DNA from: Tachypleus tridentatus
Lineage: Eukaryota > Arthropoda > Merostomata > Xiphosura > Limulidae
Assembly (NCBI RefSeq): GCF_004210375.1
Contig: NC_134834.1
Span: 155,019,290-155,083,289, forward strand
DNA length: 64,000 nt
Direction of reading: 5' to 3'
The notes under the pieces were generated by a model. It did not search any database. It was not told where the DNA came from and saw nothing but the letters and a program-made list of their open reading frames with translations. Within the stretch, counting starts at the first letter, position 1; every line of letters starts with the position of its first letter. Shown here piece after piece: positions 1 through 63,370 of this stretch. Both the position numbers and the translations under genes were made by a program.

Positions 1-38
1 CGAACCCGCGACCCTCGCATTACGAGTCGCACGCCTTA
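1..38 (-). repeat. tRNA-Thr-derived SINE (family 1), fragment cut by the window edge
   Basis: The first 38 bases are the reverse complement of the tRNA-like head of SINE family 1 (B-box cgaaccc, then the anticodon region tacgagtcgc). The body, if any, is left of the window. Confidence 0.8.
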
Positions 39-341
39 GGAAACTATCACTTGATAATGGACAGTTACCGCACCGGTATGGTTCAATGTCAATAATGCAT
101 ATGTGAGGAATGCCTGTACATCCATTTTTATACTCGGGTCTGCCGAGCGAAAGGAGGCTGAGATGGATAATAAACTTCTAGATTTATAAATCTATATGTA
201 CTCGTAGAAAATAAACATGTGATTAATGTTTAGTGAAGAATCTACTTAAGTGAATAATTAATTCAAAAATAGAATAAAAACTTTTACATTAGGCAAGTTC
301 TGACTATTATTTACAAAGTTCAGATTCAGAGTGTAAACAAT

Positions 342-427
342 GGGCTATCTGTGCTCTGTCCATCACGGCTATGTAAACCCAATTTCTAGAGTTGTAAGTC
401 TGCAGACATACCGCTGTGCCACAGGGT
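342..427 (-). repeat. SINE family 2 fragment
   Basis: Reverse complement of the short tRNA-derived family: gctatctgtgctctgtcc (tail side), then ttgtaagtctgcagac (anticodon arm) and gctgtgccacaggg (head). Diverged, no clear target-site duplication. Bases 428-960 around it hold nothing I recognise. Confidence 0.65.
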
Positions 428-4065: not shown

Positions 4066-4342
4066 GGCCCGGCATGGCCAAGCGCGTTAAGGCGTGCGAC
4101 TCGTAATCTGAGGGTCGCGGGTTCGCATCCGCGTCGCGCCAAACATGCTCGCCCTCCCAGCCGTGGGGGCGTTATAATGTTACGGTCAATCCTACTATTC
4201 GTTTGTAAAAGAGTAGCTCAAGAGTTGGGGTGGGTGGTGATGACTAGCTGCCTTCCCTCTAGTCTTACACTGCTAAATTAGGGGCGGCAAGCACAGATAG
4301 CTCTCGAGTAGCTTTGTGCGAAATTCCAAAAAAACAAACAAA
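4066..4342 (+). repeat. SINE family 1, full length with TSD
   Basis: tRNA-like head (A-box tggccaagcgcgttaagg, B-box gggttcgcatcc, anticodon loop actcgtaatc like tRNA-Thr-CGT), a body with ctgccttccctctagtctta, and a tail cagatagctctcgagtag with gctttgtgcgaaattcc and A-rich end. The 14-bp target-site duplication ctatcacaatagaa is perfect (4052-4065 and 4343-4356), so this is a fairly recent insertion. It lies just upstream of RhoGEF exon 1. Confidence 0.92.
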
Positions 4343-4532: not shown

Positions 4533-7500
4533 GTGAGTGATGTAAATCTGTATTTATGTATTAACTAAGTTCTTGAAAAATTCTCCTCCAAAGGTGAAAC
4601 TTAAAGAATAGTATCATTGTAGGGATGGTTAAGGATGTTATATTAAATCGGTTTTGAATATGCAAATAAGCAAGTCCGGTGACAACCATTACATTTTGAT
4701 ATTGTATGACATTTCTTGTATGATATCATCATAAATTGATCACGTATTGAAGAATATGTAGAGGATGTTTCCTACGTAAAGTTTTCATATATTTAAATAA
4801 TAAATATGTGTTTAGACTTTCAATTTATAATTTCCAAAATAGACATATCCATTGTACTTAACAGCAATCGAAAACAAAAATATATGGGTCAACTTTGTGA
4901 TACCAAGATAACCCTGAAAGAGACCTGTAATAAGTTATATTCCAGTTGTGGTATATAAAGTGAGGTATCTCGTAAAAGGTGAGAATCTACGAAAATAAAA
5001 TGGTCAGTTGCAAAAGCTGTCCATTTGCTTCAATTATTAATAACAGCATGCAATACAATCAAGAAACATTTCCTTTTGTAAAAACTACAAATGTTTTACA
5101 AGTTGTTTCTACGAAATACCCAGGAAAGTAAGACTGACTGTATTCATGAATGGTATTTAGGTGAAGAAAACTGCAGTACCTTGATAACTGTGACAAATCT
5201 CATACCATTTTTTTACGGGTTAATGGGTGAGAAAAATGCTCAAATCTTGCACATGTCATGGTGCAAAACCTTTTCGAAGGGATTCATGACCAATACTGCT
5301 GGGGTAAGTTAGGGATCAGGGAAGTGGATATAAAGGTCAAGGTGAATTCTGATTACCCTTTATACCACACAGCAATACCAACTTTAAAGTGAAGCAAAGT
5401 CAACAAGGTGTGAGTTCACTAAGATAAGGCTTCTAATGACACCTCCCATTCAACCGTTGCTGCGTGCCTCAAGCAGCTGAAGAAAGTAACAAACCAAAAA
5501 CATGACCTTTTGTTTTTATCATGTTGCTAATGAATTGTAGCCTATTAGCAACCCATTATTGACTAAAATCAGTTGCATTGTTATAATGTGTGAACATAAA
5601 TATTTCCTATATTTATAATGTATAGATATTCTCAGTTTTATAATTATGACAATTTGTTATCATACATAATGGCAGTAAACTGTTATAAATGAGAGATTTA
5701 GAACACAATATCAGTCTAGGAAGACATACACTGCTGATTACAGCTTAATAGTTATTAAATAACTCAAAACCCTTTTTTTTTCTTTTTTTATACGTTATTA
5801 CCCACCCAAGACCAAAGATTTATAAATGGAAGTATAGCAACATTTTAGTTTAGCTTGTCAAAATGTACAAATTAAGACTGAGCTTGATGACTTTTACAGA
5901 AACTTGTTACAGTATAGATTGAAGTGTCTGAAAACACTTTGTAGTGATAAACATCAAACAGATGATGTAAGAACTAGTTTTAAAGGTAACATGGTAGCTG
6001 TAACATTATTTTTGCAGAAATCAATTAACTCTGAGTATAAATACCTACTAACTAAAGTCTGCAGCTGAGACAAGTCTATGCTAAAATCAGGAGCTCAATT
6101 CTCTATGTTGACCAAGCAGATAGTCCAATGTAGCTTTGCTGTAAGAAAACACACAAACACAAAATAAAAATATCTTGTTTACTTATGAGACCAAAAATAT
6201 ATAAAAACATATCTAAAATTATGAAAATAGCTTTTGTAACAATGCCAGCTCTACATTTAATTGAAACTAGTCCCCTCTTTGATTGTAAAAGTGAGCAGTT
6301 TTCATAAAGTTGCATAGTCTTCTAAAGTTATTTTTGCTTGGTTTGGATTTATAGTCCTTTAATCATTCTTAATAACCTAAATATTTTAGATTCTTTTACT
6401 CAGCAAATTAATTGGCAATTCATTTTTGTAAATTTCTTTTCCATACCAAAACATGAACGTTAACAGAGAGAAATGACACTGAGAATTATTCTGTACTTTG
6501 ATTCATAACTTCTGCTGCAGCATACCATTTTTGCTCTGTTTACAAATCATTAGTGCTCTTTGGAAGAGTAAAACAAATGCACTGAATAGTTCTCATGTGG
6601 TGGTGGAACTTAAGTGATTTGTTTGGTTTTAATGCATAGCCATTTATTCACCAATAATAACTACTAAAATTTGTGTTTTTGGTAAAGAAAAAAAAATTCC
6701 TAAATAATAATCACTTGATCTGCTGAAAATAGATAATTTATTCTTATGGTATGTTACAGGTTATACAAGTACTTAAAGTACTTTATTATTAGAAGTGAAT
6801 GAGGGATTATATATCAAATCAAACAAACTGCTCACATTCTGCTGTTATATGAGGTATTCTTTATTTATTTATCTTCCTCTTCCAAGCAATACTGGTCAGA
6901 TATGAAAGGCCTCGTATGGCCAGGTGGTTAGAGTGTTTGGCTCGTAATCTGGGGGTCATGGGTTCTAATCCCCGTCACACCTAACATGCTCGCGATTTCA
7001 GCAGTGGGGACATTATAATGTGATGTTCAATCTAACTATTTGTTTGTGAAAGACTAGCCCAAGAGTTGGCAATGGATAGTGATGACTAGCTGCCTTCCCT
7101 CTAGTCTTAGACTGTTAAATTATGGACAACTAGCCCTCATGTAGCTTATGGCAAAATTCAAAAACAACCAAACAGTCAGATGTGAATTCAGCAAAACTAG
7201 TTTTTTGCTTTGGGAATAACGACTACAGAACAGAGTAGGTGTCTTTGTTATATTTTTCTCATTGCCATTCAAGCTTTGGCATGGAATAGAAATTCACTGA
7301 TAAATATGTCTAAGTTAGGTGAAGTTACAACTCTTCTTGGATGATAAAGGTGGCTAGTTTTCATAAAGTTACAAACTGTATAGTTAGTTCAAGCTACATC
7401 TTAGGATGATTAAAATGAATTGAAATAACAATAACTTATAAAGGTACCAAGTTAACAGTATTTGTGGCTCTTAGGACCAATGAGAGAGCACAAGAGGGCC

Positions 7501-16500: not shown

Positions 16501-19500
16501 TCAGACAAAATCCAAATGCAGGTGAAAAACTCTATTGTATAAGGGTGATTTTATTGTTATTCTTTTACTTCAGTAACTATCAGAAATTTTAAGGATGGAG
16601 GTTTGGAGGAACTTTCAGTAGAATTATTTTTAAAGTGTTCTTATTATTACTTTTAACATTAGAAAACTTTTAAGGGTAATTGCCTTCCCACAGCTGGCTA
16701 CAGACAGTAAAAGGCTGTAGAAGTGGAAACATTGTGGTTATACAAACTTAACTTTGCACCCTTATTTGATTTTCTATGACTGCTAACTAGTGTTTGATCT
16801 GCTTTTGGGTTTTGTTTGATACCAAATACTTTTGTGTACTATCACCACAGACTATTTCCATTATGACTTCAAGGTTACAACTGAAAAATTACAAAGGAAT
16901 TTTAAACTAACAATAAGGCTTAATTTATATTTATATATATATAGGAATCTCTCTGAGCTATCATGTAAAATTGTGGATTTTGTAAGTGCCAGTAATAACT
17001 GTACTTTTTGCTCTTTGTTACAAGTTACATTAACAGTAATGTAATGTACACATTTCATTAAATGTCTTTTCTAAAAAAGAAAAATGCTCAATGACAAAAT
17101 ATTCTTGAAAGTAGGAAAGGTGCTATTGCTGAATGTCTATTAACCAATAAAAAATATTTAGCTAATTGCACAAGTAAAGAAAGAAACTTACCTGTGTTGT
17201 ATCAAGGAACATGCAAATACTTTAGATTTGGCAGGACGTTCTTTCAGTCTTGGGCTTGGCATGGCCAGGTGGTTAAGGTGCTCAACTCATAAGCCAAGGG
17301 TTATGGGTTTGAATCCCCATCACACCAAATGTACTCGCCTTTCCAGCTGTGGGGCATTATAGTTTAACAATTAATCCCACTATTCATTGGTAAAAGAGTA
17401 ACCCAACAGCTGGCAATGGGTGGTGAGGATTAGCTATCTTTCTCTAGTCTTACACTGCTAAATTAGGAATGGTTAGCACAGAGATTTCTTGTGCATTTTT
17501 GCTAAGAAATTCAAAACAATCAAACAATCATCAGTTTCACTAGGAGAATGTGTACTGTGGAGGGAACACCTACATATTTATGGGAGCAGATTTTGGAAAA
17601 CATAAATGAAATTAATTAACACATATTCACTACTATTACATGCCACTATATGTTAAATAATAAGTCATATAACAGCACATTTTTGTGAAATATTCACGAG
17701 AAGGAAATTTTCCCAAATCTTTATTTTATTTAATTATTGGTATTATTATTATCATTAGTGTATGTTTGAGCTAATTATTATTATGCTTAACTTTAATTTA
17801 GGCCCGGCATGGCCAAGCTCGTTAAGGCGTGCGACTCATAATCTGAGGTTCGCGGGTTCGCATCCCTGTCGCGCCAATCATGCTCGGTCTTTTAGCCGTG
17901 GGGGCGTTATAACGTGATGGTCAATCCCACTATTCATTGGTAAAAGAGTAGCCCAAGAGTTGGTGGTGGGTGGTGATGACTAGCTGCCTTCCCTCTAGTC
18001 TTACACTGCTAAATTAGGGACGGCTAGCACAGATAGCCCTTGAGTATCTTTGTGCGAAATTCAAAAAACAAACAAACAAACTTTAATTTAATTTAATTTT
18101 AGTTTTTATTTGTATTTGTTATAGATATTTTAAATTCATTTTGGAATCTAAATGTAGAGGGGCTAAAATGGATGGGTCAGGACACCCTTTCCATGGTGTC
18201 AGGTCTGTCTTGTTTCCAGAAATTTTCATTATTTATTATGCTAGGTTTTTATTTTGGCAGTTTTCATCAGTATTTTCTTTCAGGCCAGTAACTTGGAACA
18301 AAAACGAGAGTGGTGTCTGGAACTAAAACGAGTAATCCTTGAAAATTATAATGCAGTAATTCCATCCAAAGCTCGGCAACTAGTAATGGCACTTGGCCAG
18401 AATAAAGAAGGTAGGGAATGGTAAAATTGTTAACTTGCAGTTCTGTCATTGTAATGGTGCTTTTATGTTCCCATTTGTTTTTGCTTTCCCCAAAGCAGAA
18501 AAATGACAAACTGTTATAAAGTGCATTTATATACTTACATGTTTTATTTCTCCTCACTGTGAGATAGGCTAACAATGATAAAGAAAGATATATGTAGCTG
18601 TGAAGTGTTTTGAAGAGAAAACTGGAATAGCACATTGTAGCATCCATGCAAGAATGTAGTGTTTACAAGTTGGTCTTGGGCACTTTGTTGTATTTCAGGA
18701 TCCCATGTTTGTTTCAGTTAGTTTTAGAGATTGTTTGTGGTAACATATTCGAAACTTAACTGTATTGAAGTCTCACTTACGTGCTGAGTAATTGGTATAG
18801 ATACTTTATAGGAAATATTATGAGCATAATTACATGCATGTTTATCTTGCTCTGTATACATCGGAAGGCCACATTGTCAAATAGTGTCAAAATATATTTG
18901 TTTCTTTTATATATGTGTAGTCTTAAAATTTACTTTGTTATGTTGCATTTGATATTATTTCTTCTGAATGGTTTAGACTCTCTTCTGAGTGAGAAAACTA
19001 GTTCCAAGCGTCTTCATTTGGCACCAGAATATCTGGAAAAACGAAATCAAGAAAGAAGGAAATCTGAAACCAGTTTGAATAAAACTTTCAAATTAAAGAA
19101 AGGTAATCTTTTCATAATTTATTATTCTCTCTTTTGATTTTATATAAATTAATAGTCACAACATTTTATTTGTTCAAAATTACAATAGCACTGTATGATG
19201 TAGTTTGCATATGTGGAATGACAAGAATATGTGGATTGTTTTTAGTCTAATATAATGGATTGTAAATATTAAATATAATAACATTCCAGTGTAATATTTA
19301 TTCTCAGCCGTACAATTTAACTTAATTGATTTTACTTAGAGTTATTAACATTTATCTGTTTAATAATTGTTTTTTGTTTTTTATATTTTTAGGAAACAAG
19401 AAGGTAAGAGTACCTGAAAAGATTATTTTCACACCAATAGTAGCAAGTATGTGTTTGGTAATACAGATTTTCCTTTTTTTCTTACCAGCAAAGCAAGATT

Positions 19501-22500
19501 TCTTTGGCAACACTTTTTAAACAAACTATAAAATCCAAACTGTATTAAAAATATACTTTTATCCGTTTCACGTTTCCATACATCATATAATACTTTAGTT
19601 TGAAATCCTAGTTAACATTTGGTTGTATCAGTGACCCAAAGATGTCACCCCTGATGCCTCATTTACAGTGTGAAAAAATGTATATCATGTAAATATTAGG
19701 CATTTATAAGGTCGTTTTAGAGATTCATATTAGTGTCCTAAGTATGATAGTTCTACAGTATAGTTTTGTTATTCACAGCCAACATTATTGCAGTGTGTAA
19801 GACAAGAGAGAAGGCAATATGATATCAGAAGGAAACAAGCCTTGCTCACAATCCTATCCAATTCATGTTTAGTGAGGGTCATCCGGGACCTGATCAACCC
19901 CTGCTCTCTCATTTCTTTGTATATCACTAAACATACACAGATGTCATTATATGAAAGGGTTAATTGGGAACATCTGAATTTGAAATAATAATGTGCATGT
20001 ATTAAAAATATGATTCATGTGCATGTCTGTTTCTTAGTTTTTTGAGAGAGGATAAAAAACTACTCATTACTATAAAATTTCAGCTGGTTAACATAAATAT
20101 TGAATAACATTTATTGTCATTAACTAGTGATATTTTATTAAATTATTGTATTTTTCCCACCCCAGTTAATTTCTAACGATGTATAAAGAGTTATTATTGC
20201 AGGTTCTACTTTCAACAAGATAAAAATAAACATAAGTGATGCACTAAAAGGTTTCTTAACATAACACTTAAAGAACAACCAGGGACTGTTCCAAACTTCT
20301 TAAAAGTATAGTGGAATGCAATTTTTAATATTTTTTGTGTTTGAAAATTTTCCATATACATTTAACATTTATTAAAAAGATGAAATAATTACTTTTCAGA
20401 AAAGGTATTCATTGAACTACATAACATAATCTTTTGAGTATTAATATTTTATGATAAAAATCATGCTAACTGCAGATGTTTGTTATTTTCATATTAATCG
20501 TTTCTTTTACCATTGAAGATTCAAAATGAGAGGCATGTAAAAATAGTATTTCACATCTATCTTTTGTCTCCCACAACTCACTAGCTGATAGGCTTTTCAT
20601 TTAATGTCAGAATATATCAGTTTTATCGAATGATGAGATAATAAGTGGCTCAGTTTTAGGTCTGAAGTTTTACAACACTAAAACTCAAGTTTTGATACCT
20701 GTAGTGGGCACAGAACAGATAGCTTATTGTGTAGCTTTGTAGTTAATAACAAACAAAAAAGAAAAAGCGTCTCTGAAATGCTATTTATATGTATGTGTGT
20801 GGTCTGATACTTTCAAAGTTATGGTTTAAATGTTCACATTTGGCAAAATTTTAGAAATAAACAAGACTAATATAAGTAACAAAAATCACTTTAACTACAG
20901 ATAATTTGTTTTCCCATACACTTTTCATTTTGTCTATTACAGTATCAAAATCAGAGGCATGTAAATCATGACTTTTAAAATAACATTTTGTCAGTCAATC
21001 TCCTTCCTTTTTTTTTTACACAAAACTTCACCTGGTAAATTGATAAAACTACTCCCACAGTGAGTATTCCTCTTCCTCAGGTCTCTTGTTCCCAGATGCC
21101 TTCTTAAAGAGATGGGAGGCTTGTCTCTGCTTTCATGAATTCAGGTTGTTGTCCTTCTAAATCCATCTCTTAGTAATTTTGGATTTTTTTCAGGATAGTT
21201 CATAGATGCTTCATTATGATACATATATCCAACTCTGCATTCATCTCCTTTATCAATCATCAGGATGCTTTATTTCATTTTCCTGGTTTTCTTCCCTCAA
21301 TGTGGATTCCTGTATGTGGTGAGGAACCTAAACATCCACTCATGTGTTTGCTATCTGTGGTGACCCGTGAAGGGGAGGAGAGGATCCTTGTGGTTGAGAG
21401 GTCCAACCCTAATACACCACTTTGGCCTTGAATTCCTGTAGATCAGAGGTTCTTAACCTTTTTCAGTGTTTGCACCCCTTTCAAATCAGTAATCATTTCT
21501 CGCACCCCCTGGAAACTTAAATATAAAAAAAGCTAAAAATATAAAGCATACTCTTATGTAATAATATAGATTTGCTTTAATTATTCATGGGCATCCTCGC
21601 ACCCCTTGGGAATCATCTTCGCACCCCCTAGGAGTGCGGGCACCCCTGGTTAAGAACCACTGCTGTAGATGGACAGCTTTGGGGTGGCTCCCCCTAGGGT
21701 CAATCAGCTGGCCCACTTGGGCTAGTGTCAACTAAGTACCAGTGTTGGATGTTCTCAACAGGTGTTGTGGACACTGTATCTGATGTTGATGTTTGGGTAT
21801 AGTCCTTACGAAACCCTAGTGTTGCTGCAGTGTCCTTGTTTGACATGCAAAACCATCATATGTTCAAGTCCTCAGTTGCTGGAATCCTCTTCCAACAACA
21901 AAGACCTGCCCAGTTGACCCAGTGCAGGATCCATGAAGATTGACAGACCTCCCTCGAATAAAGACAATAAAGAAAAAAGATGTGGCCCTAAACAGAAGGG
22001 CTCTTCACCCAATTTGCCTACACATAAATAAAAATGGCCATCTTGATACAATGGAACTCTCTAGGTTTACGTTCTAATCTGGATGACATCAAAGCACTGA
22101 TTGCTTCCTACCATCCTCTATGTCTTTCCTTAGAAGAAACATTTCTAAACCCTGCCAATACAGTCACCTTTCAGCAGTTTTCTTTGTACAGAAATGACAG
22201 GCTGTGTGATTGATAAGTGCATAGAGGGGTGGCACTCTTGGTTGATCAGCATGTGCCCACCCTCTCTTTGCCACTCGAGACACCCTTGTAGGGCAGTAGC
22301 CATCCGTGTTTCCTTGGGTTGTACCATCACTCTTTGTTTTCTCTACCTGTCACCTGGAGAGACATATGATCAATCAGACCTTGATGCTCTCATTGAACAG
22401 TTGCTGTCTCCCTTTTTTAATCCTAAGGGACTTTAATGGACATCATCCCCTCTAGGGAAGTGCTGATTTTGATAGGAAGGGTCGCTCCTTAGAGTGTATG

Positions 22501-25500
22501 CTTTCTGATCACAATCTATCTCTTTTCAGTAGTGGTTCTTATACTTAGTTTTATGCACCTAGTCTGTTCTTCACTGCTAATGGTCTCTCAGTTTGCTCCC
22601 CTTCACTATTCTTCCACTTTTCATGGAGGATTGACAATAACCTATGAGGCAGTGATCATTTTCCTATAATTTTGAGAGAGACTGGTTGTGGTCGATGCCA
22701 CCTGACCCATGTGCCCTGGTGGAAGTTGGAGCAAGCAAACTGACCCTCTTTCGCTGCTCTCGCAGAACTTGATCCTGCCATCATCTGTAAGCAATCAATA
22801 GATGACTGTGTGGCAGCAGTAACTGACTGTATTATACAAGCAGCTGCTCAATGTATTCCTAAAACTCAACACATTTTCCATGATATCCTCGTCTGTGGTG
22901 GAATCCTGTCTACCACATGGCACAGAAGGCTCAAAAACAGGCCTGGGATACATTTTGTATGTATCCCACACTCTTGCACCACATCACTTTCCAACAGGCC
23001 TGTGCACATGATCAGTGGGTAAGATAACAAAGCCAGAAGGACTCTTGGATTAAGTTCACAACCAGTATATCTTCTACCACCATTTCCAAAGTCATATGAG
23101 ACAAGATTCAAAAGGTCAGTGGGCAGTATAATTCTATCCCCTTCTTGATCTTCCACTCTGATGGCCAGGAAATAGCTGATACCTGGAGCATCGTCGATAC
23201 TCTAGGTGAAAGCTTTTGCCAGGTATGTAGCACTTCTTTTTCTTCCTCTACCTTCTTAGCCATTAAGACTTGGGCAGAGCGATCATCACTTTCCTTTTGA
23301 GCTGATTCTCTCTATAACTGTAATCGTCCCTTTACACTGGTGGAATTCAAACTGGCCTTCATCAGTCTGCAGATACATTAGTCAGATCTGATGATGTACA
23401 CTCTTAAATGCTATGACATCTATCTCCTGCTTCTCTTGCTATTCTTCTGATTGTTTTTAACCAGATTTGGCAAGAGAATGTTTTTCCTGATGTCTGGCAC
23501 CAGGCTATTGTCCTACCTTTCTCTAAGCCTGGGAAGGATCCCAAGTTTCCTTCAAACTACTGTCCAATTACTTTTACAAGCTGTCTCTGTAAGACCTTAG
23601 AGAGGATTGTTAATGCTCATCTTGTTTGGTTCCTCGAATAAAACAACCTTTTCTTGTCCTCCCAGCGTGGGTTCCGACAACAGAGTTCCATGATGGACCA
23701 CCTGATTCGATTTGAAACATCAGTCAGAGAAGCTGTTTTGAAATAACAACATCTTATATCAATGTTCATTGACACTGAGAAGGCTTATGATACAACAGGG
23801 AGGCATGGCATTTTGTAAGAACTCCATTTATTTGGATTATATGGCCATTTGCCAATTTTTATTAAAAATTTTTAATGGACAGGCAATTCCAAGTTTGTGT
23901 GGGTTTGACACTTTCCTGTTCTTTTCTACAGGAACTTGGATCCCCTCAGGACTGTGTTTTGAGTGTCACGCTTTTCAGTATAGAGATTAATGCCATCACT
24001 GAACAACTTTCTCTTACTGTTGCAAACAGGCTCTGTGTCAAAAACTTTCACATTTCATGTCAGTCATCAAACATGAGGTATATTGAGTCCTCAGTTGTTT
24101 ATTAAAGTGGACCACAGCAAAGAGCTTTAACTTCTCTCTCTCTAAAACTGTTTGCATGCACTTTTGCCACCAATGGGGTTTTCACCCTGATCCTGAACTC
24201 TGTATTGGTGAAGTTGTGTTACCAATGGTCCCTGAGACAAAGTTCTTGGGGTTTATCTTTGACCGTAAGCTGGCCTTTATACTACACATCAAGCACCTAT
24301 GGGTCAAATGTACAAGAGCACTGAACATCATCCGTGTCCTCTCTTCCACTGCTTGGGGAGTGGATCGATGTTCTATGCTAAAGATATATCGTGCTCTTAT
24401 TTGATCGAAACTAGACTATGGATCACTGGTCTATAGCTCTGCCAGGACCTTGCCTTAAAGATGCTGGACCCCGTTCATCATCAGGGACTTCAGCTCTGCA
24501 CCGGGGCTTTCCTCACTTTTCCAATTCAGAGCTTATACACAAGAGTCTCATGAACCTTCTTTGCACCTCTGCTGTTTGCAACTGTCTTTACTCTATGCTT
24601 CAAAACTTCATTCCTTACCAAAGCATCCCACCTGGGGTTATGTTCCCTTCCTCAGTGGGCCATACGTTTTCAGAACAGAAGATCTGCCATTGCTCCTTTT
24701 AGCCTTCATATCCAGGCACAGTTGGATGAATTGGGTCTGCCCTTGAAGAGCATTGCTGTATCCACTGGTCAGCTCATGTCACCATGGCTTATGACAGTCC
24801 CCAAATCTGACCTATCTTTAAGTCATCTGAGAAAAGCAGACACTCCTGATTGGAAATACTGTCTGTTATTTGTTGAACATCCTTCAAACCATCGTTCCTT
24901 TCTTATTTATACAGATGGTTCAAAATCAGGTGACTCTGCAGGCTCTGCCATGGTTTGTTATGGTTCTGTGGTTTTGCACAGAATCCCCTCTACAGCTTCT
25001 ATGTCCACTGCTGAACTGTATGCCATTTCTCTTGCCCTGGGTCACATAGAAGCTAAGCAGTACTCAAATTGCACTATTTATACTGACTCATTCAGTTCTC
25101 TGTTGGCTCTGGAATTGGTTCACGTTAGTTCACATCCTATTCTCACTCATATTCAAAACCAACTGGTCCATTTCTCTTGAACATCTACTTCTATCCAGTA
25201 TATCTGGATACCAGGCCATGTTGGTATTCGTGGGAACAAGCTCACCGACACCACAGCTAAATCTGTGTGCTCCAGCACTATCATTGCTCTGCCTGTTCCA
25301 TACGTGAGCTATAGTCATGTATTCAAGGCTCAGCTCTGTATCAGTTGGCAGTCGACTTGGAGCGAGCAATGTGAAAACAAGCTTTTCCAAATAAGACCCT
25401 CTATTGGACTTTGGCCACCTTGCTTCCATAAGGATCAGAAAAAGAAAGCTGTTCTAACTTGACTTTGCATTGGTCACAGTTTTTTAACATACTGTTTTAT

Positions 25501-28500
25501 TTTACATAGGACTGATACACCAATGTGTTGACTGTGTAACTCTCAGGTCGCAATAAACCACATTTTACTGTATTGCCATTGTTAAAACTCTCTACAACGG
25601 CACCATTTTAAACATGTTCTGTCCCAAAGTTTATCTATGACGTTAGACAGTGTTATTGGTGATGGTGACACTGCTGACTTTAGAAATGTTTTTAGTTTTT
25701 TAAAGGCCATTAATCTTTTCAATGCTATTTAAGTTTTTTTTAATTTATACATTAGATCTTTTTTAATGTGATTCCATTTTAAGAATCAAAGTACACCTAG
25801 TTTGATTTGAAATTAGAAAATGGTTGTTATGTCAAATAACTCAAAACCAGGACTGGAAAGACCAACTTCAAGTGACTAATGCTGCTATTTGAGCTACCCA
25901 TTATTCATCCTGGCAAGTTTTAATAATTAAAATTTTGCTACAAGTCTTTTAAAACTTGTATTACATTACTTTCCGTAATTGGCCATGACATCAATAACTC
26001 AAAACCAGGACTGGAAAGGCCAACTTCAGGTGACTAACGGTGGTTATTGAACTTACCAGTTAGTCTTCCTGGTGAGTTATGGTAATTAAAATTATGCTAC
26101 AGAAAGTCCTTTACAACTTGTATTACTGTAGTTTCTCTCTCACTGCTGTAGACTAGATATAAAAATTTGATTTAATGCTATTTATGTTTTTAATTCAAAA
26201 ATTAAACTTTGTCTTGTTTTATCTTAATTTACTTTTATGAATTTTACTAATTTTACCTTAATTTTAACTTTTTTACTGGATGTTTGATGCAGATAGCCTA
26301 GTTGTTTTGTGCCATGAAACATCAAACCAACCAACCTGATTTCCACATTATCGACTTCCTTTTTTGGGGACCAGTTTTATACAAGAACATTCATTCTGAG
26401 TATCCTAAGTCTTGTCATGAATCATCTCTTGAGACCAACCAAGACCCTATCTGCAGATTGGACTCTTGTCCCTCTGGTGTTCAAATAACTTCTTAATGTT
26501 TTTACCACTCTTCTCAGTGTTTTACTTTCCCTTTTGTGGTCCCCCGTTCTTCCTCCTTCAACCTAAGCTGGGAATACATTCCATCAAGATTGATCATTTT
26601 ATTTTTACATGCTTGTCTTCCTACTCATCTTCTCTCCCATATCTTCCCTCATTCTCTATGTTGAGACTTCCTGATAATTATCTATTGACTGGGTTAGCCA
26701 TGATTTCCTCTGTTGCATCTTTTCCTGTTCTATTCTCTTCCTCTACCTTGGTCTCTCTACCTACTCCTACAACCTAATTCCTACCCCTCTCATATGTGGG
26801 GTTTGTCCAATTCCTTGTGAAGTGTTCTAGCATATTTACATGTAGTCTTCCATCTTTCTTGTTTAATGCATTCTTCCTCTCTCCTTGTCTAACCACAATG
26901 AGGGTACACATTAAATAGTTAGTCTCTGCCTAGCATTTTATTCCATTTCCTTCCTTCTATTCCACATTTTTTTTATTTTTTTTTGGCTATGTGATCGAGG
27001 TTTACCAGTTTTGGTTGGTTACTAGGCAACTCCATCTAATAATTTAGGGTTTTATTGTTATTGTAATATATTCTCCTCTCCTGTTCTTTCTATTCTTTTT
27101 GCATCCTTTGCCCTTCTTGACATGCAAGACTTCCTGATTGGGAAGTGCCCTTACCTTTCCTCTACTTAACTTTTAGTCTCTTGTTCCTTGTATCATTTTT
27201 CACATAGCACCCTACTTTCAGTTGCTTTTTGAGATATGATGTGTATGCCATTGCTATTTACCATATTTTTTCCTTCCATTTTCTATATTATTCTTGTTCT
27301 GTTTTGAAATATTTTTTCTGTCCCATCCATGTAATTCATTGTTTTTTGACCTTCCCTTACCTCCAGTCCTAGTTGAATAAACCAAGACTGGACTGCCCTT
27401 CAAACTAGGGTTTTTGTCACCAATTACACTCTTATAGTGTTGCATTTCTTTGGATTCTCCAATGCATTGTCCTTCTCTCTTCCAATTAAGTTCATAAGTC
27501 CTTACTACTTACCAGTTCCTAATAGCTGGGGCGGTAGACCATGGAGGCTTCCTTCTAATTGTGACTTATTGCATTCAATTGAGAGAAAGGCAGTGGTTTT
27601 CTGTTGGTGTATATGGTGAGTATCCTCTTCCTACTGAAGGCAAATATCAAGTAGGAGTACTGGATTCACATGAGGTGACCATTGGCTGACTTATCCCATT
27701 CTGGATGTCAGTTCCTGGGCAGTCTGGTGTTGGATCATATTAGGACCAACCAACATTAGTCTTCACATATGTGGCTGGTAGGGATCTTCCTCCCTCTTCT
27801 AAACAGACAAAAAGTTACCAACTACACATGGGTTTGGACTGATACTGACCCATCATGTTTGCATTCCTATTCTCTTCCTATTTTACTTAAATATTGGGTT
27901 TCTAGGTATTCTTGGTCTACATACATGCCCTAACTAGATTAATTAGTGGAATGGAATTTGTTTTCCATTCTTCTTCCTGGTCTTGAGGTAAAGACAGTTG
28001 GGATTCTCCTCCTATTGCAGACCAGAAGACAAACACCTGGATTTGGACTGAAGATGACCCACTAAATACAACCTGATGCACCCTAGCCACTCTACACCAT
28101 TTAGCATGTACAATTACAAATTGAAAGAGGGTGTTTTTCCACCCAGTTTAGTGACACATAATTCTAGTGGATAAAGAGTATACCTGGTAAAAGTGGATTA
28201 TGGTCTCCCAAGAATGTGACCACCCCATACGTCAGGGCATCATATTCCATAGGCATTCTTTGGGTTCTTTCTAAAAAATGTTCATCTCTGTAACTTTTGC
28301 ACAAACAGGAGTGGACTCAATATAGGAAAATGTATTTCTGATAGATACTTACCCCTCTCACACTTCCCACCCATCCAGAACACTTTTAGAGTGTTCTTTT
28401 ACTTAATCTCGAAGTTATGATATTACTCTACAGTATAGAGGGGGTCAGCTGCTCTATCAGGGTGTGTCACACTTCTGTTGGTGGAGGGTTATCACATGCT

Positions 28501-39750: not shown

Positions 39751-39805
39751 AATGTTTTGGGGCAAGAAGGTGCCTGTTGGTCCATTTTGGCTATCCCATG
39801 CTCTA

Positions 39806-39932
39806 GCCCTCCAGTGGTACAGTGGTATGTCTGTAATTTTACAGTGCTAGAAACTGGATTTTGATCCCCTGGTGGGCAGAGCACAGATAGCTTATTGTGT
39901 AGCTTTGTGCTTAACTCCAAACAAATCAAACA
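39806..39932 (+). repeat. SINE family 2 (3'-type a), nested in the LINE
   Basis: ccagtggtacagtggtatgt, loop ttttacagtgct, gggcagagcacagatagctt and attgtgtagctttgtgctta, then an A-rich end. Same subtype as 20641-20760. Confidence 0.82.
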
Positions 39933-41585
39933 TACGAACCCATCCTTTAAACTGAACTAAAACTATTAAATATGCCAGCCTGTATCATTCATATAGCTAT
40001 CAAGCTTTCTCTTACACTCACTTAAATTTACTGCCTCCACAACATCTGAAGGCAACCTATTCCAGATGCCAACAACCCTCTTAAAAAAATAAAACTGTCT
40101 TAGCTGAAGATGACTTCTACCTTGCAAAAAAATTGTATTTGTGCCCCTAATTTTAATATTCTTATTGTTAAGTATGAAAACACTATCAGTTATCTTTACA
40201 ATTTTAAACACCTCAATCACATTCCCTCTAAGTCTTCTTTTCTCAAGAGAAAACAATTTGAAATATCTTAATATTTCTTCATATTACAACCCCTCCATTT
40301 CAGGCACCATTCTAGTAACCCTTCTCTGAGTCCTATCAACAATTCAATGTTCTTCCTAAGGTAAGGAGCCCAAAGCTGAACACAGTACTCCAAATGTGGC
40401 CTAATCAGTGACTTATACAATGAAATTATAATGTCTTTAGACTTGCATTTAACATTTCTGTAGGTACAACCTAAAATCCTATTTGTTCTAACACTCGCAA
40501 CAGCACACTGCTTGGATGACTTAATAGATGAACAACCATTACACCAAGATCCCTTCTTTCATAACAATGTTAAAGTTATTCCCATCCAAATTATACTCAT
40601 AATACAAATTATGATAACCAACATGCATTATCATGCATTTATTATAATTAAAACGTGTGTCACTTATTTATTATGCTTACTAACTCATAAAGCAGCAGCA
40701 TTCTTTCACAGCTTGCAAAACACAAGACATTAATACTGTTATCAAATTAAAGTAATTTATTGAACTTTCTTTTAAATTCCTTCATCTATGTCATTTAAGT
40801 AAATAAAAAAGAGCAACGGTTTAAGACTGAGCCCTGAGGTATCCCTTTGTGATATTAATCTAGTTTCACTGAACTTCACTTATAATAACTCTTTGCTTTC
40901 TCTTATTTAGCCACTCTTTTATTCAATTAAGTAATTCATCCTCCACATCTAGTAGAGATATTTTTTTACAAGCCTTTTATGTGGCACCTTGTAAAATGCT
41001 TTCTGAAAATCTAGATACATCAATCTGCACTCTTACCTCAATCAACACAAGATTTTTAAGGCTAGATTTTCCCTTAATGAGACCATTTTAATTATTCAGT
41101 AAAATTTTAAACTTTGTTAAATGACTTTGCAAGGCATATTTTTATTTCACTTTCCAATATTTTTCACGTAACTGATATAAGAATAATAGGCCTATAATTA
41201 TTGGGACAATATTTATTACTCCACATGAAAAGAGAAGTGACATTATCTAACTTACAATCCTTTGTCACCTGCCCACTGTTTAAGGACTTACATACTCAAT
41301 CCTTAACCTCCTTCAAAACCCAAGAGCGTTATCTTTCTTGAAACTTCTTTATTTTTTCTTAACAAGCTCACAATTAATGTAGTTGTCGCGTTCAACTTTT
41401 TTCCTCATCGGTCAACTGTTCAAGATGAGGAATACTGCTTAAATCTTCATTATTAAAAACTTAAGAAAAAGCAGAGTTTAATATCTCAGCCATTTCATAA
41501 TCATCAGATACCAACCTTCCTTTATCATCCCTCAAGAGCCTTACTCCCTTTATCATCCTGTTTAAGACTAATGTATGTAAATAAG

Positions 41586-41815
41586 TTGGTCAGGTGATTA
41601 AAGGATCGCGAGTTCGAATTCCCATCCCATCAAACATACTCGACCTGTTAACCATAGGGACATTATAATGTTACGGTCAATCCCACTATTCGATGGTAAA
41701 CGTGTTGTTGATGGGTGGTTATTACCAGCTGCCTTCACTATAGTCTTTCACTGTTAAATTACGTAAGGTTAACGCAGCTAACCCTCGTGTAGTTTTGCAC
41801 GAAATTTCAAAAATA
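41586..41815 (+). repeat. SINE family 1, internally deleted
   Basis: The head keeps gttggtcaggtgattaa and gagttcgaattcc, but the anticodon arm is missing. Body and tail diverged. It interrupts LINE copy B, whose sequence resumes at about 41816 (by comparison with copy A). Confidence 0.8.
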
Positions 41816-41870
41816 ATTAAAGGAACTCTTACTATTAATATTTACATTTACAGCCAACCTTTTCTCATAC

Positions 41871-42133
41871 AGGCCTGGCATGGCTAGGTGGTTAAGGCAT
41901 TCGACTCGTATTCTGAGGGTCGCGAGTTCGAATCCAAATCCCACTAAACATGCTCGCCCTTTCAGCCGTGGGGGCATTAAAATGTTACGGTCAATTCCAC
42001 TATTCGTTGGTAAAAGAGTGGCCCAAGAGTTGGTGGTGGGTGATGATAACTAAATGCCTTCTCTCTTACACTGTTAAATTAGGGAGGGCTAGCGCAATAG
42101 CTCTCGTGTAGCTTTGCGTGAAATTCAAAACAA
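41871..42133 (+). repeat. SINE family 1 with TSD, nested in the LINE
   Basis: Head aggcctggcatggctaggtg, B-box gagttcgaatcc; TSD ttttctcatac at 41860-41870 and 42134-42144, perfect. Confidence 0.92.
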
Positions 42134-43559: not shown

Positions 43560-43838
43560 AATTGGCCAAGCGTATTAAGGTGTTCGACTCGTAATCTGAG
43601 GGTCGCAGGTTCGAATCCCGGTTGTACCAAACATGCCCGCCTTTTCAGTCTTGGGGGCGTTATAATGTGACGGTCAATCCCACTATTCTTTGGTAAAAGA
43701 GTAGCCCAAGAGTTGGTGGTGGGTGTTGATGACTAGCTGCCTTCCCTCTAGTCTTACACTGCTAAATTAGGGACGGCTAGCGCAGATAGCCCTCGAGTAG
43801 CTTTGCGCGAAATTAAAAAAACAACAACAAAAAAAACC
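43560..43838 (+). repeat. SINE family 1, slightly 5'-truncated
   Basis: Starts aaattggccaagcgtattaa; B-box aggttcgaatcccgg. Body close to consensus. Short flanking match cctaaa on both sides. Confidence 0.9.
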
Positions 43839-44021: not shown

Positions 44022-44139
44022 GCCCCCCGCTAGTACAACGGTAAATCTATGGACTTACAACGCTAAAGTCAGGAGTTCGATTTCCCTCGGTGGGCTCATC
44101 AGATAGCCCGATGTGGCTTTCCTAAAAGAAAACACACAC
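44022..44139 (+). repeat. SINE family 2 (3'-type b) with TSD
   Basis: gctagtacaacggtaaatct, loop cttacaacg (like tRNA-Val-TAC), ggagttcgatttccctcggt, agatagcccgatgtggcttt and an aaaacacacac end. TSD actaatgcccct at 44010-44021 and 44140-44151, perfect. This defines the family's full length as about 118 bp. Confidence 0.92.
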
Positions 44140-44502: not shown

Positions 44503-44763
44503 TATGTTTGTTTTTTGTTAATTTTGCGCAAACTACACAAGGTTTATATGCATTAGCCGTCCGTAATTTAGCAGTGTAAGACTAGCAGTAAAGCAGTTAG
44601 TCATCACTACCCATCGCCAACTCTTGAGCAACTATTTTATCAACAAAGAGTAGGATTGATCGTGATATTATAACGTACCCACAGGTGATATGGCGAGTAC
44701 AGTATGGTGTGGCGGGGATTCTAACTCGCGACCCTCAGATTATCACATAGCTATGTCGGGTCT
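44503..44763 (-). repeat. SINE family 1, old copy
   Basis: Reverse orientation: gtttgttttttgttaatttt (tail) to accctcagattatcacatag (anticodon arm). Several CpG decays. Weak flanking match agttaaa. Confidence 0.87.
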
Positions 44764-44833: not shown

Positions 44834-44951
44834 TGTGTGTTTGTGTTTGGTTTACAGCAAAGCCATATTGAGCTATCTGCTGTGTTCACTGTGGGAAATC
44901 GAATTCCGAATTTTAGAGTTGCAAGTACGTACACTTACTACTGTCTCACTA
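44834..44951 (-). repeat. SINE family 2 (3'-type b)
   Basis: Reverse orientation: tgtgtttgtgtttggtttac, then agcaaagccatattgagcta and gttgcaagtacgtac. Approximate TSD cagtagtgatg / cagtagtttatg. Confidence 0.82.
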
Positions 44952-45027: not shown

Positions 45028-45294
45028 TTTTTTTAATCTCGCGCAAAGCTACTCGAGGGCTATCTGCGCTAGCCGTCCTTAATTTAGCAGTGTAAGACTA
45101 GAGGGAAGGCAGCTAGTCATCACCACTCATCGCCAACTCTTGGGCTACTCTTTTACCAAAGAATAGTGGGATTGACCGTGACTTTATAACACCCCCGACT
45201 GGGAGGGCAAGCGTGTTTGGTGCGACCGGGATTCGAACCCGCGACCCTCGGATTACGAGTCGAATACCTTAACACGCTTGGTCATGCCGGGCCC
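45028..45294 (-). repeat. SINE family 1, young copy
   Basis: Reverse orientation, near consensus: ctcgcgcaaagctactcgag at the tail end and cttggtcatgccgggc at the head. It lies 540 bases upstream of the EHD start codon. Bases 45295-45833 contain no other feature apart from a short GT repeat near 45749. Confidence 0.92.
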
Positions 45295-59219: not shown

Positions 59220-59280
59220 AGCTGAACTATATGCATGAGAGCTTGATGCCATAAGGATGTACTTCATGTATGATAGTAGT
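59220..59280. repeat. Stray unit of the 56130 minisatellite
   Basis: gctgaactatatgcatgaga followed by gcttgatgccataaggatgt, like units at 56400-56530. Confidence 0.5.
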
Positions 59281-59285
59281 GTTGA

Positions 59286-59368
59286 ATAGCTGTCTTCTCT
59301 TTGGTCTCCACTTTAAAGAGGGCAGTGAAAAAGCCCTAAAGTAACTTTGCACAAAATTCAACAAACAT
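59286..59368 (+). repeat. SINE family 1, 3' end only
   Basis: agctgtcttctctttggtct, gagggcagtgaaaaagccct and aactttgcacaaaattcaac correspond to the last part of family 1. Strongly diverged. Confidence 0.65.
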
Positions 59369-60189: not shown

Positions 60190-60312
60190 GTCTTCTGTTT
60201 GGGAAGTGGTAAGTGTTCAGATTTGCAATGCTGAAACCAGAAGTTCGAATCCCTTGGTGGAAAAAACAAATAGTCTGATGTCATTTTGCTATAAGAAAAC
60301 ACATACACATTC
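60190..60312 (+). repeat. SINE family 2 (3'-type b)
   Basis: gggaagtggtaagtgttcag, loop tttgcaatgct, agaagttcgaatcccttggt and ttgctataagaaaacacat. It ends just before the second RNase-H LINE begins. Confidence 0.8.
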
Positions 60313-60324
60313 TGAAAACAAAAA

Positions 60325-63300
60325 TTTCATGACTCGACATTCCACTATATCCTCCTCCATGGTGGAATCCTGCCTGCCACATGGCATGGAAGGCTCAAAA
60401 AATGAACTTTGGATACTTTCTGTAGATATCCACACTCTCGAGCTGCATCACTTTCCAGCAGGCCCGTGCACACGCTCGATGGGTAAGACATCAAAGCCAG
60501 AAGGAATCTTGGATTAAGTTCACAACCAGTATATCCTCTACCACCAGTTCCAACGTCATTTGGGACAAGATTCAAAAGGTCAGTAGGCAATATCACTCTG
60601 TCCCCCTCTTGATCTTGCTCTTTGATGGCCAGGAAGTGGCTGATACCCAGAGCATTGCCGATACTCTAGATGAAAGCTTTTGCCAGGTATCTAGCACTTC
60701 TGCTTCTTCTTCCATCTTCTTTGCCATCAAAACTAGAGCAGATAATTGTCCCTTTACACTGGTGGAATTCAAACTGGCCCTTCATTGGTTTGGCAGTACA
60801 TCGTTGTACCTGATGATATACACTATGAGATGCTGCACCATCTGTCTCCTGCTTCTCTTGCTATCCTGCTGGTTGTTTTTAACATAATCTGGCAGGAGAA
60901 TATTTTTTCTTGATGCCTGGTACCAGGCTATTGTCCTGCCTTTCATCAAGCTTGGGAAGGATCCCAAGATTCCTTCAAACTACCGTCCAATTGCTTTTAC
61001 AAACTGTCTCTGTTAGACCTTAGACAGGATGGTTAATGCTGGTCTTGTTTGGTTCTTGGAATCAAACAACCTCCTCTCGCCCAACCAGTGTGGGTTCCGA
61101 CGACAGCACTCCAACATGGATCACCTGATTCAACTTGAAACGTCAATCAGAGAAGCCTTTCTCAAACGACAACATCTTGTATCAATATTCTTTTACATTG
61201 AGAAGGCTTATGATATAACTTGGAGGCATGGTATTTTGCGAGACTTCCATATATGTGTTACGTGGCCATTTGTCCATTTTTATTAAAAAGAAAGTAGATT
61301 CCGAGTTCTTGTGGGTTAGACAGCTTCCAGTTCTTTTCTACAGGAACTTGGAGTCCCTCACTGTGTTCTGAGTGTCACACTTTTCAGTATAAAAAGTAAT
61401 GCCATCACTGAACAACTCCCTCTCACTGTTGAAAACGGGCTGTATGTTGATGACTTTCACATCTCATGTCAGTCGTCGAACATGAGGTATATTGAGCAGC
61501 AGCTACAGACTGCCCTCAATTGTTTACTGAAGTGGACCACAGCAAACGGCTTTACCTTCGCTCGCTCTCTCTCTAAAACCGTTTGCACACTTTTGCCGCC
61601 AACGGGGTATTCACTCTGATACTGAATTTCGTATTGGTGAAGTTGTGCTGTCTGTGGTCTCAGTTCTTGGGGCTTATCTTTGACCATAAGCTAACCTTTA
61701 TAGCACACATCAAGCAGCTACGGGTCAAATGTACAAGAGCACTGAATATCCTCCGTGTCCTCTCTTCCATCACCTGGGGAGCAGATCGACATTCTGTGCT
61801 AAAGATATATCGTGCTCTTATTCGATCAAAACTCAACTATGGATCACTGGTTTATGGCTCTGCCAGACCATCAGCCTCAAAGATGCTGGACACCATTCAT
61901 CATCAAGGACTTCGGCTCTGTGCTGACTTTCTGCACTTCCCAAGTTCAGAACTTATACATAAGAGTCTCATGAACCTTCTTTGCACCTCTGCCATTTGCA
62001 GCTTCTTTACTGTATGCTTCAAAACTTCGTTCCTTACCTAAGCATCCCACCTGGGGTCATGTTTTCCTTCTTCGATGGGCCTTGCTTTGTCAGACCAGAC
62101 GATCTGCCATTGCTCCTTTTGACCTTCGTATACAAGCGTAGTTGGATGGATTGGGTCTGTCCTTGGATAACATTGCTCTATCCACTGGTCAGCCCATCCC
62201 ACCATGGCTTCTTACAGTCCCCAATTGTGACCTATCTTTAAGTCATCTGAGAAAAGTAGACACTCTTGATTGAAAATACTGTTTGCTATTTGCTTAACAT
62301 CTTTCGAACCATCCTTCCATTCCTATTTATACAGTTGGTTCGAAATCAGGTGTCTGTATGGGTTCTGCCGTGGTTCGGTGGTTGCACGTAGAATTACCTC
62401 TACAGCTTCTGTGTTCACTGCTGAACTGTATGCCATTTCTCTTGCCCTGGATCACATAGAAGCTAAGCAGTACTCAAACTGCACGATTTATACTGAATAG
62501 CTTAGTTCTCTATTGGCCCTGGAATCGCTTCACGTTAGTTCACACCCTGTTCTCGCCGATATTCAAAACCGACTGGCCCATTTCTCTTCAACATCTACTT
62601 CTATCCAGCTTTTCCAAATAAAATCTTATAATGTACTTTGACCGTCTTGCTTCCGTAAGGATCAGAAAGAGGAAGTTGTTTTAACTAGACTACGCATTCA
62701 TCACAGTTTTTAACTCATTGTTTTCTTTTATTTGGAACTGATGCACCAGTGTGTAGTTTGTGTAACACTCAGATCATAATAAGTCACATTTTACTTTATT
62801 GTCATCGTTACGATTCACAACGACGGCACCATTTTAAACATGTTCTGTCCCGAGGTTTGTCCATAATGTTAGACACTGTTATTGGTGATGGTGACACTGT
62901 TCACCATGGTAATGTTTTTAGTTTTTTAAAGGCCATTAATATTTTTAATGCCATTTAACTTTTTTAAATTTATACATTAAATATTTTTAATGTGGCTCCC
63001 TTTTAAAAATCACAGTTCATCTAGTTCGATTTGAAATTAGAAACTGGCCGTAACATTAAGTAACTCGAAACCAGGACTGGAAAGGCCAACTTCAGATGGC
63101 TGACAGTGGTTTTTGTACCTATTAGTCTTCCTTGCGAGTTATGATTATTACAGTCACGCTATAGAAAGTCGTTTACAACTTGAATTACTGTAGTTTTTCT
63201 CTTGACGTTGTAGACTAGATGAAAACATTGGTTTTATGCTGTTTATGTTTTTTAAACTTTGTTTTGTTTCACCTTAATTTCCTTTTATGAATTTTACTAA

Positions 63301-63370
63301 ACTGACCTTTCCTTTTTTACCGGACGTTTGATGCAGATAGCCTAGCTGCTTTGTGCCATATTAAAGCAAT
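60325..63370 (+). mobile_element. RNase-H-bearing LINE, 5'-truncated (copy 2)
   Basis: Homologous to 22870-26336 of copy 1 from ggtggaatcctgcctgccac onward; the endonuclease is missing. RT pieces: LVWFLESNNLLSPNQCGFRR, SIFFYIEKAYDITWRHG and an intact active-site match GLYVDDFHISCQ (about 61440). Thumb: LIFDHKLTFIAHIKQLRVKC. RNase H is damaged ([20 protein letters not shown] kept; the last Asp of IYTD reads Glu, then a stop). The tail gatgcagatagcctagctgc at 63330 matches copy 1. Many stops, so not active. Confidence 0.85.

Follow-up and report, generated by a model that had tools for sequence, protein, structure and literature searches.

The RNase-H LINE group of Tachypleus tridentatus shares a terminal hairpin with three tRNA-type SINEs, and it seems likely that the LINE enzyme copies these SINEs in trans. 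The proposed mechanism is target-primed reverse transcription. In the LINE's own RNA, the hairpin close to the 3' end would be recognised by the reverse transcriptase, which would then begin synthesis on a short terminal repeat. The SINE RNAs, which would be made by RNA polymerase III, would bear the same hairpin beside terminal repeats of their own and be copied by the same LINE enzyme. The observations behind this proposal are the hairpin module and its terminal position, changes on both sides of its stem, target-site duplications at some copies of SINE 1, 5' truncations, and the high copy number of that family.

Two copies of the LINE lie in the window, that is, the whole stretch of 64,000 nucleotides analysed (Table 1). 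They are 80.8% alike over 2352 aligned columns, and stop codons are abundant in both. When eight stop-free segments of the LINE were scanned against Pfam, RNase_H exceeded its cut-off in one segment and was weak in another. The match to PF00075 (27.4 bits, cut-off 25.8) lies downstream of the reverse transcriptase and therefore places the RNase H C-terminal to it, as in LINEs of the I superfamily. On these decayed copies, the matches to PF03372 (Exo_endo_phos, 15.5 bits) and PF00078 (RVT_1, 20.7 bits) fall below the cut-off. Between positions 25830 and 26135, copy A contains two tandem units of about 140-160 bp (GACTGGAAAGGCCAACTTCAGGTGACTAA...) that are 81% alike; copy B seemingly contains one.

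Both window copies terminate in sequence of the type CAGATAGCC-loop-CTTTGTGC (at 26290 and 63334). The strings that the sequence-only reading had reported for the LINE, AGATAGCCTAGTTGTTTTGTGC at 26291 and AGATAGCCTAGCTGCTTTGTGC at 63335, are present, as are those for SINE 1 at 18031 and for SINE 2 at 39885. That reading had, however, ended the LINE at CTTTGTGCCAT, past which the element continues after the hairpin as ATAAAACAC(T/C)AAA(T/C)CAACC or CAATCAATC repeats. The terminal repeat of the LINE consists of CATAAAACAC(T/C)AAA(T/C)CAACC or CAATC repeats.

A genome-wide search for further LINE copies, which used an RNase-H segment of 208 residues from copy A as the query, gave 25,565 first-look candidates, 150 of which were scored and listed, and 20 were chosen by hand from high and low in the list. 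The hairpin (G)TTTGGCGCAGATAGCCTAGCTGCTTTGTGCCATAAAACACTAAATCAATC, with small differences, is terminal in 16 of these 20 copies; of the remaining four, one has SINE 2 at that place (L038) and three are without the hairpin in the stretch (L031, L033, L035). Across the 16 sampled copies, between about 0.9 and 1.8 kb separate the RNase-H segment from the tail. The genome contains 2,475 matches to a LINE-type pattern with CAACC at its end, some of them nested ends counted repeatedly, and the reversed control has none. Eight more places, L055-L058 and L067-L070, were selected with the hairpin motif and proved to be copies of the RNase-H LINE, several of them belonging to different subgroups. They have other loops and continue as CCATAAAAC, CCATTAAAC, CCAATAAAC or CTAATAAAC.

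Where the sequence-only reading had recognised two SINE families with different tRNA heads and at least 17 copies, three families were found, and the copy number proved sound. With separate profiles for SINE 2 and SINE 3 and overlaps resolved, the window holds 18 copies or fragments, of which 11 belong to SINE 1, three to SINE 2 and four to SINE 3. A 200-kb sample of contig C1, counted in the same way, holds 50, 18 and 10, respectively. The tail strings of SINE 1 lie at 4295, 18031 and 43784 on the plus strand and at 45041 on the minus strand, and those of SINE 2 at 39885 and, in degraded form, at 20717 and around 331.

Table 1. Copies of the RNase-H LINE and of the three SINE families in the window, with their terminal hairpins and flanking duplications.
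Feature	Position	Strand	Remarks
RNase-H LINE copy A, decayed	~22000..26330	+	RNase_H over Pfam cut-off, Exo_endo_phos weak
LINE copy A, terminal hairpin and start of 3' tail	26282..26325	+	
RNase-H LINE copy B, decayed, 5' part missing	60340..63365	+	RVT_1 weak, below cut-off, 61017-61283
LINE copy B, terminal hairpin and start of 3' tail	63326..63369	+	
SINE 1, full copy	17801..18075	+	hairpin 18027-18055; flanking duplication AACTTTAATTTA
SINE 1, full copy	4066..4341	+	hairpin 4291-4319; duplication CTATCACAATAGAA
SINE 1	43563..43824	+	hairpin 43780-43808
SINE 1	45028..45293	-	hairpin 45041-45069
SINE 1	41872..42130	+	duplication TTTTCTCATACA
SINE 1, diverged	6908..7171	+	
SINE 1, diverged	17253..17527	+	
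SINE 1, 5' incomplete	44505..44744	-	
SINE 1, 5' incomplete	41585..41816	+	
SINE 1, 3' fragment	59276..59367	+	
SINE 1, 5' fragment, cut by window edge	1..44	-	
SINE 2	39803..39925	+	hairpin 39881-39910
SINE 2	20641..20756	+	
SINE 2, partial	334..425	-	
SINE 3	44022..44137	+	SINE-2-like head, tail CAGATAGCCCGATGTGGCTTT
SINE 3	44851..44949	-	
SINE 3, 3' part	6078..6153	+	
SINE 3, decayed	60195..60302	+	

The heads of the SINEs differ as had been claimed. SINE 1 is about 275 bp long, and with the score threshold lowered ARAGORN calls a tRNA-Thr(CGT) in its consensus of 32 copies. Taken singly, the copy at 17801-18075 does not match the Rfam tRNA model at E up to 1. SINE 2 and SINE 3 have a common head, different from that of SINE 1. 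In SINE 3 it forms a tRNA-like fold without an assigned type, in ARAGORN at the lowered threshold only. A B-box-like GGTTCGATTCCC is present in this family, and none of its copies in L011, L015 and L016 matches the Rfam tRNA model at E up to 1. Across the window, ARAGORN at its default called no tRNA and Rfam at the gathering score gave no match. Elsewhere, L016:1962-2033 and L016:9784-9855 are identical tRNA genes in one 10-kb stretch (68 bits each), with the anticodon TGT by alignment.

At the other end, SINE 1 and SINE 2 terminate in AATTCAAAACAAAC, and SINE 3 ends in AGCAGATAGCCCGATGTGGCTTTGCTATAAGAAAACACAC with the terminal repeat ATAAGAAAACACAC. Heads and tails of the SINEs are reshuffled. 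The tails of SINE 1 and SINE 2 are nearly one and their heads differ, while SINE 2 and SINE 3 share a head and differ in their tails.

The insertion marks of SINE 1 include both duplications and truncations. An edge stretch of at least 10 bases is common to both sides in 6 of 32 copies, and in the remaining 26 the longest such stretch is shorter than 10 bases. Three of the six lie in the window (17808, 4073 and 41879) and have duplications of 12 to 14 bases. Among 39 sampled copies with a 3' end, 14 start between model positions 11 and 214. The exact tail pattern of SINE 1 has 91,306 matches in the genome and none in the reversed control, and this family alone has some 10^5 copies. Some copies are cut to about the hairpin (SINE 1 at L061, L062, L064, L072-L075 and L077, and likewise SINE 2 at L063). 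The insertions at L062, L072, L074 and L077 consist of little beyond the SINE 1 hairpin and an A/C-rich end, with apparent target-site duplications, by eye, around those at L062, L072 and L074. The idea that the hairpin acts as a stop for the enzyme, drawn from such copies, was rejected. The search patterns had forced the position, and the truncation points of the sampled copies look spread out.

LINE and SINEs have in common a hairpin module, about 27 nt long, that adjoins the terminal repeat of each family. Its consensus is (G)CRCA-GAT-AGC-C-loop-GCT-T-TGYGC, with 5'-(G)CRCA paired to TGYG(C)-3' and AGC to GCT, and with GAT opposite T between the two stems; the outer stem is shorter in SINE 3. 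The pairing was assessed in an alignment of 54 chosen sequences (18 LINE, 19 SINE 1, 8 SINE 2 and 9 SINE 3). These comprise all 18 LINE hairpins, 19 of 31 from SINE 1 and 17 of 20 of the SINE 2 or SINE 3 type (one from the unlabelled class), with the latter two families sorted by eye. The rows left out are mostly more diverged, and the other 63 unlabelled rows were unused. In this alignment, the named structure pairs 92.5% of cells, compared with a shuffle mean of 86.8% and with none of 500 shuffles reaching it, and sliding the partner by one to three columns lowers the pairing to at most 57.3%. RNAalifold returned a nearly identical hairpin. Both sides have changed in four of the eight stem pairs, two of them in a single sequence only, and 6 of 500 shuffles reach that number. 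Additional pair types are not unusually numerous (70 of 500 shuffles reach their count), and 14 of 53 rows do not form the outermost pair.

The third stem pair of SINE 1 was followed in larger sets. In 264 kb, made up of the window and 20 stretches of 10 kb at 9-Mb steps along contig C1, this pair is A-T in 9 copies, G-C in 14, A-C in 3 and G-A in 2 (Fisher 7e-5); the Fisher tests of this stem omit the G-A cells, which are 2 of 28 in this sample and 1 of 100 in the listed places. Among the 100 places listed of the 91,306, there are 64 A-T, 26 G-C, 5 A-C, 4 G-T and 1 G-A. The loop CTCGAGT (64 of the 100 listed) goes with 54 A-T, 8 G-C, 2 G-T and no A-C, and the loop ..GTGT (20 of the 100) with 1 A-T, 3 A-C, 2 G-T, 13 G-C and 1 G-A. 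Because the correlation is absent among the 20 copies with the loop ..GTGT (p 0.53), one double change that defines a subfamily may explain much of the covariation in SINE 1.

By folding energy alone, the signal is clear in the LINE (mean z -2.61, with the tested pair in 14 of 18 folds) and weak in SINE 1 (z -0.76, 8 of 19), SINE 2 (z -1.59, 4 of 8) and SINE 3 (z -1.32, 6 of 9); a competing fold exists for the SINE 1 tail. The common 3' module noticed in the sequence-only reading is real. It is terminal in the LINE and the SINEs, can be folded as one hairpin and has changed on both sides at some pairs.

The SINEs terminate in the two sequence blocks of the LINE with other loops between them. 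A relaxed motif scan of the 264 kb gave 41 matches, of which about three look chance-like by eye, and none for the reversed motif. Genome-wide, AGATAGCCN{5,14}CTTTGTGC has 92,311 matches and none in the reversed control, with SINE-type loops in most of the 100 matches listed among them. The motif CAGATAGCC..GCTTTG, which was derived from the SINEs alone, is matched best at the very 3' end of either LINE copy in the window, with 15 of 15 letters in copy B and 14 of 15 in the other; the best of 100 mononucleotide shuffles of copy A scored 13.

Pairwise alignments gave a graded picture. With gapped alignment of the consensus ends (44-48 nt) and dinucleotide shuffles of the LINE end as the null, the LINE score was reached by 139 (SINE 1), 195 (SINE 2) and 233 (SINE 3) of 20,000 shuffles, and the alignment with SINE 3 extends over the first block only. 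Among the SINEs, the score was reached by none (SINE 1 and SINE 2), 2 (SINE 1 and SINE 3) and 5 (SINE 2 and SINE 3) of 20,000. In single copies, 1 to 4 of 2,000 shuffles reached the score of the LINE with SINE 1 (three pairs), 11 to 37 that of the LINE with SINE 2 (three pairs), and none that of SINE 1 with SINE 2. The SINE 3' ends therefore resemble the LINE 3' end above chance, and a common end is evident as a motif and, modestly, as a pairwise alignment. Since the shuffle tests are far stronger for pairs of SINEs, the SINE tails appear to form one group, with the LINE tail as a looser relative.

The common tail that the sequence-only reading had described holds for the two blocks. The tails of SINE 1 and SINE 2 also agree past the hairpin (AATTCAAAACAAAC), and the LINE does not take part in that agreement. 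Loops, 3' flanks and terminal repeats all differ between the LINE and the SINEs, and their similarity does not extend through the terminal repeat to the last bases. Hence the borrowing of the LINE tail as originally worded, which would predict identity through the 3' end, is not supported. The SINE tails agree with one another more closely than with the present-day LINE, so that they were probably derived directly from an older or unobserved LINE whose loop was SINE-like.

The same findings lend weight to the most serious alternative, that a different LINE with a SINE-type loop and a AATTCAAAACAAAC end, now absent, rare or unsampled, is the true partner of SINE 1 and SINE 2. The LINE of the window would then be its sister and would drive only itself, or perhaps SINE 3. 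This alternative is unlikely, although it accounts well for two SINE tails that are nearly one sequence and for a LINE that differs from them in loop, flank and terminal repeat. In addition, the end of SINE 3 (CTATAAGAAAACAC) is by eye nearer to the LINE end (CCATAAAACAC) than are those of SINE 1 and SINE 2, in a part that the alignment did not reach. Against it, no abundant non-SINE carrier of the tail was seen with the patterns used. A pattern for the tail of SINE 1 and SINE 2 that excludes the SINE bases upstream, and that by an arithmetic estimate passes roughly a third of unrelated upstreams, has 408 matches in the genome. In the 100 matches listed, the upstreams are mostly different, a few are repeated and none recurs more than about five times; one SINE 2 group occurs about five times within half a megabase. 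Six of these matches were read. Three are SINE 1 cut to about the hairpin (L061, L062, L064), two lie at SINE 1 copies (L065, L066) and one is the 3' end of SINE 2 only (L063).

Searches from the side of the LINE also argue against a different partner. A LINE-like upstream followed by AGCTTTG has 24 matches, 16 with a LINE-like loop of 4 nt and 8 with SINE-type loops. Eleven of the 24 were read, and 4 are LINE and 7 SINE 1; these seven are among the eight with SINE-type loops, and five of them are cut to about the hairpin. In the 264 kb, with unlabelled matches judged by eye, no LINE was seen with the tail of SINE 1 or SINE 2. An AGTAGC-loop subgroup of the LINE was considered as a closer donor and rejected, as the loop NAGTAGC with a LINE-type CAT flank has only 6 matches genome-wide, taken to be scattered mutants. 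One place, L055, resembles such a donor in that its GCACAGATAGCCCAGTAGCTTTGTGC is the SINE 1 hairpin without TCG.

The top Pfam matches to the reverse transcriptase were likewise rejected as the SINE partner. Six of the 150 listed RVT_1 matches were read for 3.5 kb downstream (L049 with 500 N), and none has the full motif on its sense strand there; the ends of these elements may lie farther away. L049 and L050 are two copies of one element with apparently the same inserted SINE and are therefore not independent. In five of the six high-scoring copies (L049-L052 and L054), the reverse transcriptase is followed by a related stretch, GTGAAAGTGG.TTTTC...GGG.ACTCC.GTTTCCCC. This stretch is absent from the RNase-H LINE of the window and marks another retroelement group.

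Taken together, the pattern, sample and reverse transcriptase searches, whose sensitivity is incomplete, uncovered no LINE that resembles the SINE tails more than the RNase-H group does, and for this reason mobilisation by that group appears to be the best explanation. The closer LINE that would have overturned the original proposal was thus sought and did not appear. The role of the LINE as the engine of the SINEs, as first proposed, draws on the common module and on this search; given the much greater likeness among the SINE tails and the differences in loops, flanks and repeats, it is a conclusion that we infer.

What the LINE and the SINEs have in common is unusually little, namely the stem of the hairpin, the GAT side of its internal loop and the single C after AGC. 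Together with the modest similarity of the consensus ends, this could be read as convergence, in which the hairpin arose independently in the SINEs and in the LINE to suit the need of one enzyme, so that the function is common and the descent is not. Convergence is very improbable, because the 15 letters matched in LINE copy B include GAT and C, which pairing alone does not dictate. Chance likeness of short A+T-rich 3' ends, to which LINE-SINE consensus scores reached by about 1% of shuffles per pair might point, can practically be dismissed, as the motif is terminal in both LINE copies and in 16 of the 20 chosen ones and as the reversed patterns are silent against the thousands of forward matches of the LINE form and the far more numerous ones of the looser motif.

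Based on the current evidence, the protein of the RNase-H LINE group would recognise the hairpin, and the hairpin of the SINEs would have descended from a LINE. As loop, flank and terminal repeat are not shared, either the enzyme reads the hairpin alone, or the donor LINE of the SINE tails lies outside the sample. A bolder proposal is that the RNase-H LINE enzyme reads the hairpin by its structure, irrespective of loop, flank or repeat, and that three SINE types exploit this, so that the genome maps the minimal signal. This is conceivable, and we put it forward only tentatively. If mobilisation by the RNase-H LINE group is correct, one LINE group powers the copying of three abundant SINE types in a 2.17-Gb genome; repeat fractions are given in PMC7815833. 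The three SINE tails would moreover show, as a series of natural mutants, what the reverse transcriptase of an RNase-H LINE has to see, with the stem kept and the loop and end free.

Six stretches of the LINE and SINE sequences gave no hit in literature searched by sequence, and a pattern scan of IMG/VR gave 0 matches. The general scheme is known. Published work describes recognition of the template's 3' end by LINEs from many groups and a corresponding tail on SINEs (Ohshima, 2013; PMC3747384). With its terminal hairpin, short repeat, target-site duplications and 5' truncations, the case described here appears to fit that scheme. Tails of I-type LINEs have been reported on SINEs before. The Gecko SINE of Aedes aegypti is listed with the I-type LINEs I-74_AAe and MosquI, and in the part of Table 1 considered here it is the only entry that names I-type LINEs as the source of the tail (PMC3747384). 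Gecko is likewise an arthropod case, a tRNA-derived SINE that by its table entry matches I-type LINEs at the 3' end. In contrast to Gecko, three SINE types are involved here, and only the hairpin is common, not the 3' end beyond it.

Several SINEs per LINE tail are also on record. According to the same table, Ped-1 and Ped-2 go with BovB, and SlmI, HpaI and OS-SINE1 with RSg-1 (PMC3747384). As here, different heads are joined to one LINE-type tail, but BovB and RSg-1 belong to other LINE groups, whereas the LINE in this case bears an RNase H. A parallel for the structure of the tail is provided by plants, where, according to the legends of figures 7 and 8, L1 and the monocot SINEs ZmSINE2 and ZmSINE3 have a common 3' hairpin with compensatory changes (PMC3747384). 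Like the module described here, that hairpin is carried by both LINE and SINE and has changed in a compensatory manner; it belongs, however, to the plant L1 group with (T)n tails and not to an animal RNase-H LINE.
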